Positions 4,178-43,410 of a stretch of DNA of 43,443 bases are shown here, in pieces. Within the stretch, counting starts at the first letter, position 1, and every line of letters starts with the position of its first letter. The stretch lies in the IMG/VR virus record IMGVR_UViG_3300042539_001365, positions 1-43,443 of that record, one strand, 5' to 3'. A program made the position numbers and the translations under genes. This stretch comes from a virus. The notes under the pieces are model-generated. The model was not told the DNA's origin and searched no databases. It saw only the letters and a list, made by a program, of their open reading frames with translations.

Positions 4178-5152
4178 ATGGCTGGGGAATGGATTCCGAT
4201 CGATATCGCGCTAGAGTCAAAACCGGAGGTTTTGAAACTTCTCGCGCGAACCGGGCTGCCGCGTGAGGTTGTGGTCTATCGCCTGTGGCGGCTATGGGGA
4301 TGGTTCGCGCTCAACTCCAGCGACGGCACGCTAGACGCAACGCCGGAACTAATGGCGCTCGCGTGCGGTGGGGATGCGGAGTGGTGGCGGGCTGTCGAGG
4401 CTGTCGGCTGGCTGCAATTCGATTTAGAGAATGAGCGGGCTACGCTGCCGGGGTGGGATACGCGATTTAGCAAAGCGGCGAAGGCTAGGCTATTAAATGC
4501 CCGCCGGCAGTCGGAATATCGGGCGCGGGAAAGCGGCGACAACGGCGAAGAAACCGCAAAAACCCCGGCAAATCCCTGTAGTAACGCTTCCGTAACGCAT
4601 GACCGTTACGGGAGCGTTACGAACCGTAACGGTGGTGAGACACTAAATAGAGGAAATAAAGGAGATAGAGGAGAGGAGGTAGAGGAGGAGCGGCAAGCCG
4701 CTCCAGCCACCACCACCACCACCCCAAAGGCTGCGCCATCCCCCGGCAAGCCACGGGCAGCCACGGAAGGCCCGCCCGAAGGCCCGCTAGCCCGCTGGTA
4801 TCGTCTACGAACCGCGTGGAACGCTGGGGCGGGCCAGCGGTGGGATTCCAGCCGGCCCCCGCCTAATGCGTTGCAGCGGCTCGCGGAGCCTGGGTGGCTG
4901 GATGCCGCCATCGCGGCCATTCCCAAACTCGCGGAAGCGAAGTTCTTCACCGATCCCGTGCCGCTGACGCAATTTTGCGGCGAGGGCTTCGCGGATCGGC
5001 TCGCGAACGATCACTACGCGCGGCCCAAGCGCGGCGCGGCCAGACATGGGGGCGACGAGCGCCCGCCGCCGGCACAATTCACGGGCGAAGACGCGGCAGC
5101 ATTCGAACGCACGAAACGCAAATTGGCGGCGCAACTCCGCGGGCAGGGTTGA
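4178..5152 (+). CDS. Replication initiator / helicase-loader-like protein containing the origin
   Basis: 324 residues. The N-terminal 110 residues (GEWIPIDIALESKPEVLKLLARTG ... YRLWRLWGWFALNSSDG) are a winged-helix-like domain common in phage replisome organisers. The middle is a low-complexity linker (residues about 115-205, with a Thr run) whose DNA holds the iteron cluster at 4581-4631. The C-terminal 120 residues are a helical domain probably used for helicase loading or oligomerisation. The arrangement (initiator gene with iterons followed by a purine-rich, AT-richer tract) parallels lambda O. The start is set by the ATG at 4178, two bases after the previous stop. Confidence 0.75.
   Translation: MAGEWIPIDIALESKPEVLKLLARTGLPREVVVYRLWRLWGWFALNSSDGTLDATPELMALACGGDAEWWRAVEAVGWLQFDLENERATLPGWDTRFSKAAKARLLNARRQSEYRARESGDNGEETAKTPANPCSNASVTHDRYGSVTNRNGGETLNRGNKGDRGEEVEEERQAAPATTTTTPKAAPSPGKPRAATEGPPEGPLARWYRLRTAWNAGAGQRWDSSRPPPNALQRLAEPGWLDAAIAAIPKLAEAKFFTDPVPLTQFCGEGFADRLANDHYARPKRGAARHGGDERPPPAQFTGEDAAAFERTKRKLAAQLRGQG
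4581..4631. other. Predicted replication origin: iterons inside the initiator gene
   Basis: Five copies of the hexamer GTAACG or its complement CGTTAC lie at 4581-4586, 4592-4597, 4604-4609, 4615-4620 and 4626-4631, spaced about one helical turn apart and in mixed orientation. A purine-rich, AT-richer stretch follows at about 4640-4690, suitable for unwinding. The position within the linker-coding part of the initiator gene matches lambda-type origins. Confidence 0.65.
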
Positions 5153-7302: not shown

Positions 7303-7502
7303 GCGACATAGTGGAACGATTGCAGCAGTCGGCGCAACTCACAACCGACCACAACGCCGCGCATGCGCTCCATGCTGCCGTTGTCGAAATCCGCAGGCTA
7401 CGCGCGGCAGTCGATGCGCCCGCGGGCATGATCGACGATATGCGGCGCTTCAGTTGCGAACTCAAATGCAGAGCAAAGGGCAACGATGGGCAGAATGTCT
7501 AG
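7299..7502 (+). CDS. Small helical protein
   Basis: 67 residues from the ATGA overlap with the previous stop. MSDIVERLQQSAQL and AAVVEIRRLRAAV form amphipathic helices of a kind frequent in phages. Overlaps the next gene by 17 bases. Function unknown. Confidence 0.6.
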   Translation: MSDIVERLQQSAQLTTDHNAAHALHAAVVEIRRLRAAVDAPAGMIDDMRRFSCELKCRAKGNDGQNV

Positions 7503-7833
7503 GCAGAAGGGCAAGCGCGGCGAGCGCGACCTAGCCGCGGAGTTGAATCGCGTGTTAGGCGAACACACTAACGCTAGGCGAGGGGTTCAGTTTCAAGGCG
7601 GGCCAGACTCGCCCGACGTTGCCCTAGCGTTGCCCTTGCATATCGAATGCAAGCGAACCGAAACGCTGAACGCATATGCAGCGCTGGCGCAGGCCAACGC
7701 GGACGCGCCCGCGGGCATTCCCGCGATGGTGTGCCATCGTCGCAACGGGCAGAAATGGATAGCAATCGTGGAACTGGACGCATTGCCAGCGGTGGCCGAA
7801 AAAATCGCTGCCCATATAGCCACTAGGAAATAA
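7486..7833 (+). CDS. Holliday-junction-resolvase-like nuclease (PD-(D/E)XK fold)
   Basis: 115 residues. Starts MGRMSRQKGKRGERDLAAEL, where the conserved Glu of the first helix is seen, followed by ARRGVQFQGGPDSPDVALALPLHIECKR, the Asp ... Glu-X-Lys catalytic set of Hjc/RecB-like nucleases. Such phage enzymes resolve branched replication and recombination intermediates before packaging, which suits its place directly upstream of the terminase block. Starts at 7486 or 7495 are both possible; AAGGG lies before the first. Its last codons (ATRK) are duplicated in the non-coding repeat downstream. Confidence 0.75.
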   Translation: MGRMSRQKGKRGERDLAAELNRVLGEHTNARRGVQFQGGPDSPDVALALPLHIECKRTETLNAYAALAQANADAPAGIPAMVCHRRNGQKWIAIVELDALPAVAEKIAAHIATRK

Positions 7834-7880
7834 GGGGTTTTCGCACGCGATGTACGTTTCGCATCATAAAAAAGGGCATT

Positions 7881-7946
7881 TTATGGATATGTCATTTCGG
7901 CTTGCTCATGGCGTGCCGAATAGGCATAGAGCGAAAAACCCCATAA
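7881..7946 (+). ncRNA. Structured RNA motif, copy A
   Basis: Outer stem TTATGG/CCATAA (7881-7886, 7941-7946), inner stems ATGTC/GGCAT and TTCGGC/GCCGAA, a 13-base loop, and a possible pseudoknot between the loop TTGCTC (7902-7907) and GAGCGA (7929-7934). Copy B keeps each element although the outer-stem bases differ completely, which is covariation. Confidence 0.55.
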
Positions 7947-7978
7947 TTCCAGCACGAAACGCATATCAAGTGCTGGAA
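7947..7978 (+). other. Perfect hairpin after motif copy A
   Basis: TTCCAGCAC (7947-7955) pairs perfectly with GTGCTGGAA (7970-7978) around a 14-base loop. No T-run follows. It may end or stabilise the copy A transcript. Confidence 0.45.
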
Positions 7979-8055
7979 GCCCTATATTCCTGCATCCACT
8001 GATATTGCCACTAGGAAATACGGCACATTCGCACGCGATGTGCATAAAACACTAG

Positions 8056-8136
8056 AAAACAAGGTATAAACGCATCATGTCATTTCGGCTTGCTCGGAGC
8101 GTGCCGAAACGGCATGAAGCGAAAACCCCTTGTTTT
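8056..8136 (+). ncRNA. Structured RNA motif, copy B
   Basis: Outer stem AAAACAAGG/CCTTGTTTT (8056-8064, 8128-8136), inner stems ATGTC/GGCAT (8077-8081, 8111-8115) and TTTCGGC/GCCGAAA (8083-8089, 8103-8109), and a pseudoknot TTGCT/AGCGA (8090-8094, 8118-8122). The outer stem ends in a T-run, so the copy could also terminate transcription. Confidence 0.55.
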
Positions 8137-8180
8137 TAGGCACTTTCGCGCTATCATGCTCAAAAACCCCTATTTTTGTA

Positions 8181-8238
8181 GGCCCAAACGCACTGTAGCA
8201 TTTTGCTACACCCCAAGGTACTACCGCGGGTTTGGGCC
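8181..8238 (+). other. Nested hairpin element
   Basis: GGCCCAAAC (8181-8189) pairs perfectly with GTTTGGGCC (8230-8238) and encloses a second hairpin TGTAGCA/TGCTACA (8194-8200, 8204-8210). It resembles a structured RNA or a protein-binding site close to the terminase gene. Confidence 0.45.
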
Positions 8239-8502
8239 GGGAAGGGGGCCACGCGAGCCTACGCAAAAACAATCAAACTTTCTTTCGGCTGCCCCCCAGC
8301 CGGCCCCGGCGAACGCGCGCGGTTTCGGCTCCGTTCGCACCGCGCCGACGCCGCCGGCAGCCCGCGCGGCGATCGCGATGCCCTGCCCTGCGAACGCGCG
8401 GCCGGCATCCGCCGCGCGAAGTTGCCGCGCCGCGGCGACCTTCCGAAATCGTCGCGGTAGACTTGCCGCCTTCGGCGGCAACCGCGAGGCGGGCCGCATC
8501 TA

Positions 8503-10647
8503 ATGGCGAAACGTGGCGCGGCCAAAGCGAGCAAGCCCAAGCGCCAGCCGGCGAAGCCGGCCGCAGCCGCGCCGGATGCCGCCGTCAACCGGCAGCAATA
8601 CGAAGCCCACCGCGAGCGGATGGCGCGGCGGCAGGCGGAACTATCCGAAAGCGGTAGGGACATTGGGCCGCTTCCCGCGGTGGTCGATCCCGCGCGAAAG
8701 GCTGCCGCGGGCGAATCGTTCCGCGCGTTTTGCGAATCGTATTTCCCGGCGACCTTCGCGCTTGAGTGGTCGCCCGATCACCTTCGCGTAATGCAGGCGA
8801 TCGAATCATCCGTGCGGCTGGGTGATCTGTTCGCGTATGCGATGCCGCGCGGCAGCGGCAAGACCTCGCTTGCCGAAGTCGCCGCGTTGTGGGGCGCGCT
8901 CTACGGCTATCGCGATTTCGTCGCAATCATCGGCGCGGATGAGGAACACGCGCGGACGATGCTGGAATCGATCAAGGTGGAATGCGAAACCAACGAAAGG
9001 CTTTTGGACGATTTCCCCGAAGCCATCTTCCCGATTGCGGCATTGGAAAACATCCACCAGCGCGCCGCGGGCCAACTCTACAAAGGCAAAAACACCAACA
9101 TCGTTTGGACGGCAAACGAAGTGCAGTTCCCCACGATCGAAGGATCGAAGACGAGCGGCGCCATCATCCGCGTGGCCGGCATCACCGGACGCATCCGCGG
9201 GATGAGCGCGAAGCGCGCTTGCGACGGCAGGAAGGCGCGGCCTTCGCTTGTGCTAATCGATGATCCGCAGACCGACGAAAGCGCGGCTAGCCCATCGCAA
9301 GTAGCCACGCGCGAAAGCGTCTTAAAAGGCGCTATCCTGGGGCTTGCCGGCCCAGGCAAAAAGATTTCCGGCCTATGCACGGTCACGGTAGTGAAACCGG
9401 ACGATCTAGCCGATCGGCTACTAGACCGCTCACGCCACCCCGCGTGGCAAGGCGAGCGGATGCGGCTGGTCTACGATTGGCCGCAGGCGGAAGACCTTTG
9501 GGCGCAGTATGCGGAACTTCGCCGCGACGGGCAGCGGACGGGCCGGGGAACCGCGGAGGCCACGGAGTTTTATCGGCAGCGCCGCGCGGAAATGGACGCG
9601 GGCGCCCGCGTGGGCTGGGAGGCGCGGAAAAATGATGACGAACTATCCGCGCTCCAGCACGCTTACAACCTCCGCATTGACCGCGGCGAATCCGCGTTCG
9701 CGGCCGAATATCAAAACGATCCCGTAGTCGAGCAGAACGAAGCCGGCCGGCTGCAAAAGCGCGACGTTGCCGCCCGCGCGACCAACGTACCGCGCGGCGT
9801 TGTGCCGCTGGGGCATGACACGCTGACCGCGTTTATCGACGTTCAAGAAAAGTTGTTGTTTTGGCTTGTGGCTTCTTGGTCGCAATCGTTCGGGGGTCAC
9901 GTTGTCGCCTACGGCACATACCCCGATCAGTCGGTTTCATTCTTCGAAGCCTCGCACGCGAAGCGGACGCTTTCGCTCGCGAGCAACGGCGCCGGCTTCG
10001 AAGCCTCGCTATCGGCTGGCCTGGAAGCGGCTACGGTCGCGCTCATGGGCCGCGAGTGGATGCGCGAGGATGGAACGGCAATGCGCGTGCGGCAAATGAT
10101 GATCGATGCCAACTGGGGGCAATCGACTACCACCGTGCGAACGTTCGCGCGGCGCTCCGCGTTCGCGGCGAACATTCTCCCTAGCCACGGGCGCGGCATC
10201 GGCGCATCGGGGCAACCGCTCACCGACAAGGGCAAGGCGCGCGGCGATCGCATGGGGCTGAATTGGCGCGTAGGTCAAGTCAGCGCGGGCCAGCGATCCG
10301 CGCTATACGATACGAACTGGTGGAAATCATTCGTAGCCGCGCGGCTGCGGCTGCCGCTGGGTGATCCCGAAGCGCTCGCGCTGTGCGCTGGGCAGCATGA
10401 ACTACTCGCGGAACACCTCACCGCTGAATACCCGGTGCGCGTCGAGGCTCGCGGGCGCGTGGTCGATGAATGGAAGACCCTAGGCCGGGATAACCATTGG
10501 CTAGACTGCCTAGTGGGTAGCGCGGTGGCGGCATCGATCGCGGGGCTATCCCCAGCCGCCACCGAAACCGGCACGCGGACGCGCCGCCGCGTGGAACTGC
10601 CGAAGGGCAACGGCGGGAAAATCACGGTGCGCCGGCGAACTGGCTAG
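8503..10647 (+). CDS. terL: Terminase large subunit (GpA-like packaging ATPase/nuclease)
   Basis: 714 residues. The ATPase domain has Walker A PRGSGKT (115-121) and Walker B SLVLIDD (248-254). The nuclease half shows acidic strands FIDVQ and MMIDANWG and a C-terminal DNHWLDCLVG, consistent with the RNase-H-like nuclease of GpA-type terminases. It would drive DNA into proheads and cut the concatemer. A basic Ala/Lys-rich N-terminus precedes the ATPase. The start overlaps a TAA (TAATG). No small terminase subunit is recognisable beside it. A perfect 14-bp palindrome resembling the phage operator lies within it at 9408-9421. Confidence 0.9.
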   Translation: MAKRGAAKASKPKRQPAKPAAAAPDAAVNRQQYEAHRERMARRQAELSESGRDIGPLPAVVDPARKAAAGESFRAFCESYFPATFALEWSPDHLRVMQAIESSVRLGDLFAYAMPRGSGKTSLAEVAALWGALYGYRDFVAIIGADEEHARTMLESIKVECETNERLLDDFPEAIFPIAALENIHQRAAGQLYKGKNTNIVWTANEVQFPTIEGSKTSGAIIRVAGITGRIRGMSAKRACDGRKARPSLVLIDDPQTDESAASPSQVATRESVLKGAILGLAGPGKKISGLCTVTVVKPDDLADRLLDRSRHPAWQGERMRLVYDWPQAEDLWAQYAELRRDGQRTGRGTAEATEFYRQRRAEMDAGARVGWEARKNDDELSALQHAYNLRIDRGESAFAAEYQNDPVVEQNEAGRLQKRDVAARATNVPRGVVPLGHDTLTAFIDVQEKLLFWLVASWSQSFGGHVVAYGTYPDQSVSFFEASHAKRTLSLASNGAGFEASLSAGLEAATVALMGREWMREDGTAMRVRQMMIDANWGQSTTTVRTFARRSAFAANILPSHGRGIGASGQPLTDKGKARGDRMGLNWRVGQVSAGQRSALYDTNWWKSFVAARLRLPLGDPEALALCAGQHELLAEHLTAEYPVRVEARGRVVDEWKTLGRDNHWLDCLVGSAVAASIAGLSPAATETGTRTRRRVELPKGNGGKITVRRRTG

Positions 10648-40607: not shown

Positions 40608-40838
40608 CTAGGCTTTTTTGGGGCCGGCGGATTTTGCAGCCCGCGGCAGACGGGGGCGCCCCGTGTCGGAACGCTGGTATTTCTCGACCGCAGACCGCAG
40701 GGCAAACCATTGCCCGTCGATTTCCACGCCGGAAATCTTGCCGGCCTTGACGAGTTGCCGCATCCAAAATCGATCAACGTCTGCGATTCTCGCGGCGTTG
40801 CCGATCGTCACATATAGCGAGGGGTCGATTTTTGCCAT
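40608..40838 (-). CDS. Xis-like HTH protein (excisionase or regulator)
   Basis: 76 residues. YVTIGNAARIADVDRFWMRQLVKAGKISGVEIDGQWFALRSAVEKY follows the HTH_17/excisionase pattern: a winged MerR-like helix-turn-helix, wing glycine and final helix. A basic Lys/Arg tail ends the protein. It lies next to the integrase, so it could direct excision and bind att arms. It is itself under the shared operator (PF), so it is a second candidate for the protein that reads this operator. The ATG is only six bases after the -10. Confidence 0.7.
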   Translation of the reverse strand: MAKIDPSLYVTIGNAARIADVDRFWMRQLVKAGKISGVEIDGQWFALRSAVEKYQRSDTGRPRLPRAAKSAGPKKA

Positions 40839-42002: not shown

Positions 42003-42272
42003 ATGGCGACAGTAAACAACGCAAAAGCCGGGGAACGCGGCGCGGGCGGAAGGCCGCGACAGTTGGAGCGCACGGAACTAGGGCGCCGCATTGAGCGGCT
42101 AGCCGCGCGGCGGCACAAACACCTAGACGAAATCGCGGAGGCGTCCGGCGTGAGCCTGGAAACGATCTACCGCATTTCAACCGGCCGCATTACCGATCCG
42201 CGCGTGTCTACGCTGTCCGCGCTGGCGGAAGCGCTTGGCGTTCCAGTGGCGAAACTGATCGCGCCTCGCTGA
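42003..42272 (+). CDS. XRE-family HTH regulator, candidate repressor
   Basis: 89 residues. A basic N-terminal arm is followed by a helix-turn-helix (LDEIAEASGVSLETIYRISTGR, residues about 41-62), with the XRE pattern continuing to STLSALAEALGVPVAKLIA. It is divergent from the integrase gene and separated from it by attP, the arrangement of lysogeny repressors. It has no protease-like C-terminal domain, so LexA-style self-cleavage is not expected. It converges with the methyltransferase gene with 65 bases of overlap. It is the leading candidate for binding the seven operators. CAGGGA precedes the ATG. Confidence 0.75.
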   Translation: MATVNNAKAGERGAGGRPRQLERTELGRRIERLAARRHKHLDEIAEASGVSLETIYRISTGRITDPRVSTLSALAEALGVPVAKLIAPR

Positions 42273-43410
42273 TCCGTTGTTCCGCGAGCGCGATATAGTC
42301 GGGGTTCAGTTCGCAGCCGATCCCGCTTCGGCCATTCGCCACGGCAACGGCTAGCGTAGTTCCGCTGCCGGCGAACGGGTCAAAGACGGTCGCCGGGATT
42401 CGCGCGGCGTTGCAGGCGCACGACGGTTCCCATCCAACCGTTTCGGTTTGCGTAACGTGCCGCAGCGGATCGCGGTTCCCTTCGCGCGCCGCGTTGCCGG
42501 TTGTCTTTGTGTCCGTGCCGGGGCGCGTGGCAACGCGCTCCCGCGAGACAACGCGGCGAATCGGAGCGCCGCATTCCGCACAGCAACCCGCGGCGCTGGT
42601 TCCCGCGCGAAGGCAGTCAGCAACTAATGCCGGCGGCATGACCGCGAAATGTGCGCCGCGGTATGGGCGCGTGGCAATCTTCCAAACTGAACGCCGGTTG
42701 CGTCTTCCAGAAGCGCCCCATACTCGCGCCATCGCATCCGTTCCAAAATCATTTCGAAGGTGGCCCCCATCTTTTCCTGCCTTGTTCCCAGGCGCATGGG
42801 GCTTTGTCGCTAGCGGTTCGTCGATTGCCTTTGCATCAAAAAAATAGTCAACGCTTTTCGCAAGCAAAAACACGTATTCGTGCGCCTTAGTGCAGCGATC
42901 GCGCACGCTTTCCGGCATAGGGTTGGGCTTGTGCCAGATGATATCCTGCCGCAGCCACCATCCGTCCGCCTGGAGGGCGAAGGCGACACGCCAAGGGATG
43001 CCTACGAGGTCTTTGGGCTTAAGGCCGTCGCCACGTTTTGTCGGAACCCCAACAACACGAACGGCAGGCCCGCCGTCGTTGGAGTTTTTGCCACCGCTGG
43101 AAGCGTTCCCGCTGTACGAATCCCCAAGGTTGATCCAGCAAGTACCGTCCTCCCGCAGCACTCGACGCACCTCGCGGAACACTTCCACCATGCGGGCGAC
43201 GTAGGCTTCCGGCGTGGGTTCTAACCCGATTTGCCCAGCGTTGCCGTAGTCACGAAGCCCCCAGTAGGGCGGCGAGGTGATCGCGCAATGCACGCTGCTA
43301 TCGGGCAGCGTTGCCACTCCTTGCAAGCAATCGCCCGCAATGATCCGCGTTTCCGGCTGCATATCCTGCCCGTTTTGCCCATCGTCGCGGCCGGATTTGG
43401 GATTCCCCAT
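42208..43410 (-). CDS. DNA methyltransferase (N4-cytosine or N6-adenine)
   Basis: 400 residues. TSPPYWG (45-51) is the catalytic motif IV and DPFAGSGTT near residue 345 is the AdoMet-binding motif I, in the order of beta-class enzymes. An insertion with CCAEC ... CAC (residues about 270-335) may bind zinc. No restriction enzyme is next to it, so it is an orphan, perhaps protecting phage DNA or altering regulation. AAGAGGAG precedes the ATG. The gene spans the junction of the circle; its N-terminal bases recur at 1-114. Confidence 0.85.
   Translation of the reverse strand: MGNPKSGRDDGQNGQDMQPETRIIAGDCLQGVATLPDSSVHCAITSPPYWGLRDYGNAGQIGLEPTPEAYVARMVEVFREVRRVLREDGTCWINLGDSYSGNASSGGKNSNDGGPAVRVVGVPTKRGDGLKPKDLVGIPWRVAFALQADGWWLRQDIIWHKPNPMPESVRDRCTKAHEYVFLLAKSVDYFFDAKAIDEPLATKPHAPGNKAGKDGGHLRNDFGTDAMARVWGASGRRNRRSVWKIATRPYRGAHFAVMPPALVADCLRAGTSAAGCCAECGAPIRRVVSRERVATRPGTDTKTTGNAAREGNRDPLRHVTQTETVGWEPSCACNAARIPATVFDPFAGSGTTLAVAVANGRSGIGCELNPDYIALAEQRISEARSVSPLERQALPPARTA

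Follow-up and report, generated by a model that had tools for sequence, protein, structure and literature searches.

A predicted bent DNA array beside a lambda-like cos site in a clade of Planctomycetota-associated phages

What is the role of two similar repeats that lie just upstream of the terminase large subunit gene (terL) of an uncultivated phage? The original prediction described them as covarying copies of a pseudoknot-like RNA motif, and took the retained pairing as a sign of selection for RNA structure. Comparison with related phages points instead to DNA that forms part of a packaging site.

Repeats upstream of the terminase gene

The window (the whole stretch of 43,443 nucleotides that was analysed), an IMG/VR virus record, contains terminase, portal, head protease and tape-measure genes, as identified by gene and profile searches, and a BLASTN search of a phage collection gave no match. 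A DNA methyltransferase gene (42208-43410, minus strand; PHROG 67, E 2e-71) is located near the window end. Relatives were collected as 62 loci by a TerL search and as 80 loci by a profile search, the latter partly overlapping the 62. The genome matches of the profile search are nearly all to Planctomycetota, chiefly Phycisphaerae, and the few record titles that name other phyla may reflect misbinning; the relatives are apparently prophages of Planctomycetota, which are apparently also the hosts of the clade. Because the phages compared are related, the counts given below are not of independent events, and some contigs (e.g. L003 and L004) are one phage assembled twice. The genes and repeats at the locus are as follows.

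7486-7833, plus strand: RusA-like / phage PDDEXK nuclease gene, 115 aa, the last gene before the cos region (PHROG 244, E 6e-16; Pfam PF24608 below cut-off)
7889-7941, plus strand: copy A of the repeat core, a duplicate of copy B (repeat search; an 88% relative has a single copy)
8077-8129, plus strand: copy B of the core, holding the small palindrome W TGCCGAAACGGCA at 8102-8114 (repeat search; W stands alone in L391)
8503-10647, plus strand: terminase large subunit (TerL) gene, lambda GpA type, 714 aa (PHROG 38, E 3e-36; PF20454 GpA_nuclease, E 3e-22)

The two copies are present before the terminase gene as predicted; each is 53 nt long, they are 85% alike with a spacing of 188 nt, and the combined motif pattern has no chance match in 100 shuffles. 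The outer stems named for them also exist, TTATGG/CCATAA at 7881-7886/7941-7946 for copy A and AAAACAAGG/CCTTGTTTT at 8056-8064/8128-8136 for copy B. These stems differ in their distance to the core and are not homologous pairs, and the description of the copies as covarying is not confirmed. The copies are part of a larger tandem duplication that includes the 3' end of the RusA-like gene (7814-7879 versus 8002-8067, 73%).

Tests for a conserved RNA structure

Copy B folds strongly as RNA (z -7.1 against shuffles), but its minus strand folds on a par with the plus strand (z -6.8), and copy B is therefore better regarded as a DNA dyad. Copy A folds weakly, with a z of -2.1 and 8 of 200 shuffles as good. 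The loci in L106 and L204 have the surrounding layout in common with the window, though with one core arm only, and fold no better than shuffles (z +0.3 and -0.15). In the nearest relative (G003/L096, 88%) there is one copy, the outer stem is broken by a change of CCTTGTTTT to CCTATTTTT, and the proposed pseudoknot arm is lost (AGCGA to GCAGA). The AGCGA arm itself belongs to a recurring DNA element described below, of which it forms the GCGAAAA flank.

Across five sequences (A, B, L096, L106 and L204) pairing is 74.4% versus 74.5% in column-shuffled alignments, and covariation is 0.086 versus 0.085. The structure does beat slid registers, as is expected when a structure is read from these same sequences. 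At E < 0.01 a covariance model built from A, B and L096 recovers nothing beyond the sequences that it was trained on, and it recovers these on both strands. Rfam contains no match for the window at gathering scores, nor for positions 7780-8300 up to E 10, in agreement with the earlier statement that the motif matches no recognised RNA family. With no covariation, no fold in L106 and L204 and a model that finds only itself, the comparison with relatives gives no support for conserved RNA structure or for selection acting on it. Two further readings of the repeats were considered and dropped: an integron attC site, whose half-site order is unsuitable, and a tRNA, since no tRNA was found.

The cos site and genome ends

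The original prediction also located the repeats where packaging sites occur, and in this it is borne out by a cos site just downstream of them.

8217-8225, plus strand: cosQ-like box GGTACTACC (lambda GGGTCCTTTCC)
8247-8259, no strand assigned: probable cohesive-end stretch GGCCACGCGAGCC (left end set by 28 contigs that start at offset 0, right end by the single near-complete contig L391)
8274-8286, plus strand: T-rich box CAAACTTTCTTTC, a candidate terminase-binding site downstream of the cut (similar box in most relatives)

Contigs of relatives begin with the sequence right after ...GCGAGC[C/T/A], for which the window equivalent is 8259/8260. Contig starts of TerL relatives, set against relatives that read through the junction, fall at offset 0 in 28 cases and at +6 and +8 in two others (offsets -12 to +12 covered), placing the start of the left genome end at 8260. 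The regular expression used for cosQ and the cut was derived from a handful of early examples, and the contig starts are independent of it. For the right end, the near-complete contig L391 terminates 28 nt after the box start (29 in lambda), leaving, in this single contig, a gap of approximately 14 nt to the left start as the probable cohesive stretch, beside the 12-nt 5' overhang of lambda-type cos sites.

The box, GG(G)TnCTnCC(GG), is present in approximately 28 distinct junctions of relatives, of which L360 is doubtful. Its distance from the box start to the end of ...GCGAGC[C/T/A] is 42 nt in 25 cases and 43 nt in 4; many relatives have an exact GGGTCCT and the window has the variant AGGTACT, with the spacing constant. 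The lambda right end, ...GGGTCCTTTCCGGTGATCCGACAGGTTACG, carries the same box, and GGGTCCT is the lambda cosQ heptamer. In lambda cosQ is a conserved 7 bp signal required to end packaging (PMC4669245). The locus thus has fixed genome ends at one position, a large terminase of the GpA type (PF20454, E 3e-22), and a cosQ box upstream of the nick, all features of a lambda-type cos. We refer to the site as lambda-like rather than as a lambda cos because no small terminase of the Nu1 type (PF07471) was found in 19 records, in a search in which the E. coli control was positive. In L028 there are two blocks resembling cosQ plus cut (133-174 and 244-285), about 110 bp apart before one terL, which may be a duplicated or vestigial cos.

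The distance from cos to terL is often only ~40-80 bp in the clade. Part of the clade (L031, L052 and L009) has an apparent ParB-domain/DNA methyltransferase fusion gene, read from the sequence, between cos and terL. In most relatives the T-rich box is at about +14 to +24 from the cut, and thus resembles in position the site at +15 to +29 at which the HK97 small terminase (TerS) reads A-tract shape (PMC11331095). The box is a candidate counterpart of the TerS-binding R sites that make up cosB, downstream of cosN, in lambda-type cos sites.

A phased element array and its interpretation

The region between the last early gene and cosQ contains recurring elements that we designate U, V and W. U elements have the sequence CCTAnAAAACAAGG and often occur in twos or fours, 41-42 bp apart; the smaller palindromes V (TGTTGCAAAATGCTACA) and W (TGCCAnAATGGCA, TGCCGAAACGGCA) are found beside them. 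The following are present in the window.

7823-7835, plus strand: U element of duplicated unit A (CTAGGAAATAAGG), with 2 mismatches to CTAGAAAACAAGG
8011-8023, plus strand: U1, 41 bp before U2
8052-8064, plus strand: U2 CTAGAAAACAAGG, holding the 5' arm of outer stem B
8128-8140, minus strand: U3, inverted (CCTAAAAACAAGG), holding the 3' arm of outer stem B
8169-8181, minus strand: U4, inverted, 41 bp from U3
8194-8210, no strand assigned: V palindrome TGTAGCATTTTGCTACA, with V in relatives too
8011-8181, no strand assigned: dyad centred on 8096 (U1, U2, core arm / core arm, U3, U4), with 49 of 85 positions complementary

Outer stem B is thus U2 facing the inverted U3. With 85-bp arms, the dyad at 8096 ranks second of 43,000 window centres, for which the mean is 22.4. 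The best explanation of copies A and B is that they derive from the array, pieces of which underwent duplication and inversion in the lineage of the window.

In 19 phage records, 13 of 13 U matches are at or adjoin cos, and the reversed pattern gives none; V occurs in 13 of 37 phages, where it precedes cosQ by 23-46 nt. In L052 and L007 the cos together with its U elements is 1.4-1.7 kb before terL, showing that U tracks cos and not terL. A search of four planctomycete host genomes gave no paired U elements at the 41-bp type of spacing. When viral contigs were scanned with a 16-mer of U, most matches were single and unrelated, and matches were kept only where a second U lies ~41 bp away and a cos is present. 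In the 72-kb contig L093, AAAACCCCTAGAAAACAAGG (4369-4388) directly precedes what seems to be the beginning of a tRNA gene, at a distance from all cos sites that were examined. In L122 (5270-5285) and L169 (1293-1308), contigs that may lie outside this clade, a U is followed by the V-like GCATTTTGCTACAG; this may be a different kind of site. Several relatives (L023, L314, L320, L334, L354, L363, L364 and L372) have the same cosQ and cut and lack U elements or curvature, and the array is therefore not essential to cos.

The A- and T-tracts of the array are mostly spaced by 10-11, 20-22, 30-31 or 41-42 bp, and the mean cosine of neighbouring tracts peaks at a period of 10.25-10.5. At period 10.5 it is 0.62 for tracts of the same type (n=138) versus 0.02 elsewhere, and 0.44 for A with T tracts (n=54) versus 0.14 elsewhere. 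The tracts are in phase with the DNA helix, as is expected of an intrinsically bent packaging site. In a wedge model many relatives have a strong predicted bend: 17 of 36 phages exceed all 60 of their shuffles, and in 20 of 36 no other part of the contig is as curved as the array. For the window the predicted curvature is moderate (1.27, 99.4th percentile, reached in 1 of 60 shuffles), and there the model by itself is not decisive. Under the W=120 model, predicted curvature at window positions 40609, 38156 and 42783 exceeds that at cos.

The small palindromes upstream of cosQ have inner-pair mismatches in most phages; of 45 U elements, 32 have A.A at the inner position, and 9 of 13 V elements have T.T or A.A there, both counts including close relatives. 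A-tracts and T-tracts are also exchanged for one another, which preserves phase and destroys RNA pairing. These observations agree with a bend in the DNA and are at odds with an RNA stem.

On balance we favour the interpretation that a lambda-type cos has this region as its right-hand flank, and that in this clade of Planctomycetota-associated phages the flank consists of intrinsically bent packaging-site DNA that is modular and optional; the termini, the cosQ-like box and the phasing are in silico results, and we infer the bend in solution, the binder and the packaging role. A plausible mechanism is that U, W and V elements, placed at whole helical turns upstream of cosQ, would bend the double-stranded DNA and so wrap cos or present it, either to the terminase complex or to a bending protein of the host. 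Such a bend or wrap of the right genome end beside cosQ would help terminase to act as it cuts concatemers when packaging starts or ends, and no RNA function would be required. There are precedents in the static bends of lambda cos (I1/I2) and in SPP1 pacL, which is bent and wrapped by TerS (PMC4856287), as well as in the A-tract read by HK97 TerS. Counting against this interpretation are the relatives that have the cos but lack the array, the moderate curvature of the window and its more curved places elsewhere, the negative search for a Nu1-type small terminase as binder, and a conservation of the U sequence beyond the needs of bending. We tentatively suggest that a sequence-specific protein, other than a known small terminase, may bind U on one helix face in 41-bp steps and wrap the right end by cosQ, a recognition scheme that could replace or supplement cosB and be lost or amplified between related phages.

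A role in transcription is an alternative that we consider unlikely, in which the array would separate the early operon, whose final gene is the RusA-like one, from the late operon (terL), as a curved upstream promoter element and/or as palindromic terminators or regulator sites. The array is always located after the last early gene and before the late genes begin, promoters are known to be enhanced by phased A-tracts, and V and W resemble dimer operators; however, neither a sigma-70-like promoter nor a terminator-like site was found, and U remains with cos where cos is distant from terL. It is quite improbable that the elements are selfish or neutral palindromic repeats without function that pile up at the non-coding right end of the genome. 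Their copy number, from none to many, and the recent tandem duplication in the window lineage would fit this, but in these genomes they are confined to cos, and helical phasing is kept across A-tract/T-tract swaps and between element types.

A structured RNA with a pseudoknot, acting as a packaging RNA, antiterminator or leader, is very improbable: copy B folds strongly, A and B differ by one consistent double change (T-A to C-G), and L096 has a G.U to G-C change, all of which speak for it, and against it are the shuffled-level covariation, the lack of folding in L106 and L204, the equal fold of the copy B minus strand, the covariance-model result, and the inner mismatches of U and V. Finally, copy A is inside a 50-aa frame starting at 7850 and copy B starts a 20-aa frame at 8077, and both cores open with ATGTCATTTCGGCTTGCT in frame after a possible ribosome-binding site. 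That the copies are the starts of small genes is nonetheless scarcely credible, as 5 of 5 codon changes in the 20-aa frame of L096, read from the sequence, are non-synonymous and the frame is absent from L106 and L204.

The favoured bent cos flank shares with lambda-type cos sites a GpA-type terminase, the cosQ-like GGGTCCT box, static bends beside the cut (here predicted), and a GC-rich CGGCGA-type cohesive-end stretch at a similar distance. It differs in that the predicted bends are arrays of phased A-tract elements upstream of cosQ, as well as in the short distance from cut to terL, the small terminase search and the apparent hosts. HK97-type sites have the comparable T-rich/A-tract box, whereas here there is also a cosQ-like box plus a bent array upstream, and no small terminase was identified. 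The SPP1 pac site likewise has intrinsically bent DNA beside the cut, but here the cut is fixed, rather than followed by headful packaging, and the sequence elements recur. With the phi29 packaging RNA and other structured phage RNAs the locus has in common only its location near packaging genes, in contrast to which there is no Rfam match and no conserved structure.

This analysis reassigns what was claimed as an RNA motif to a site of DNA packaging, and derives base-level genome ends for an uncultivated phage clade from contig starts alone. It also widens the range of the lambda cosQ signal to phages whose apparent hosts belong to a distant bacterial phylum, and the related cos sites with and without predicted bent arrays provide a natural set for testing the role of DNA bending in packaging.
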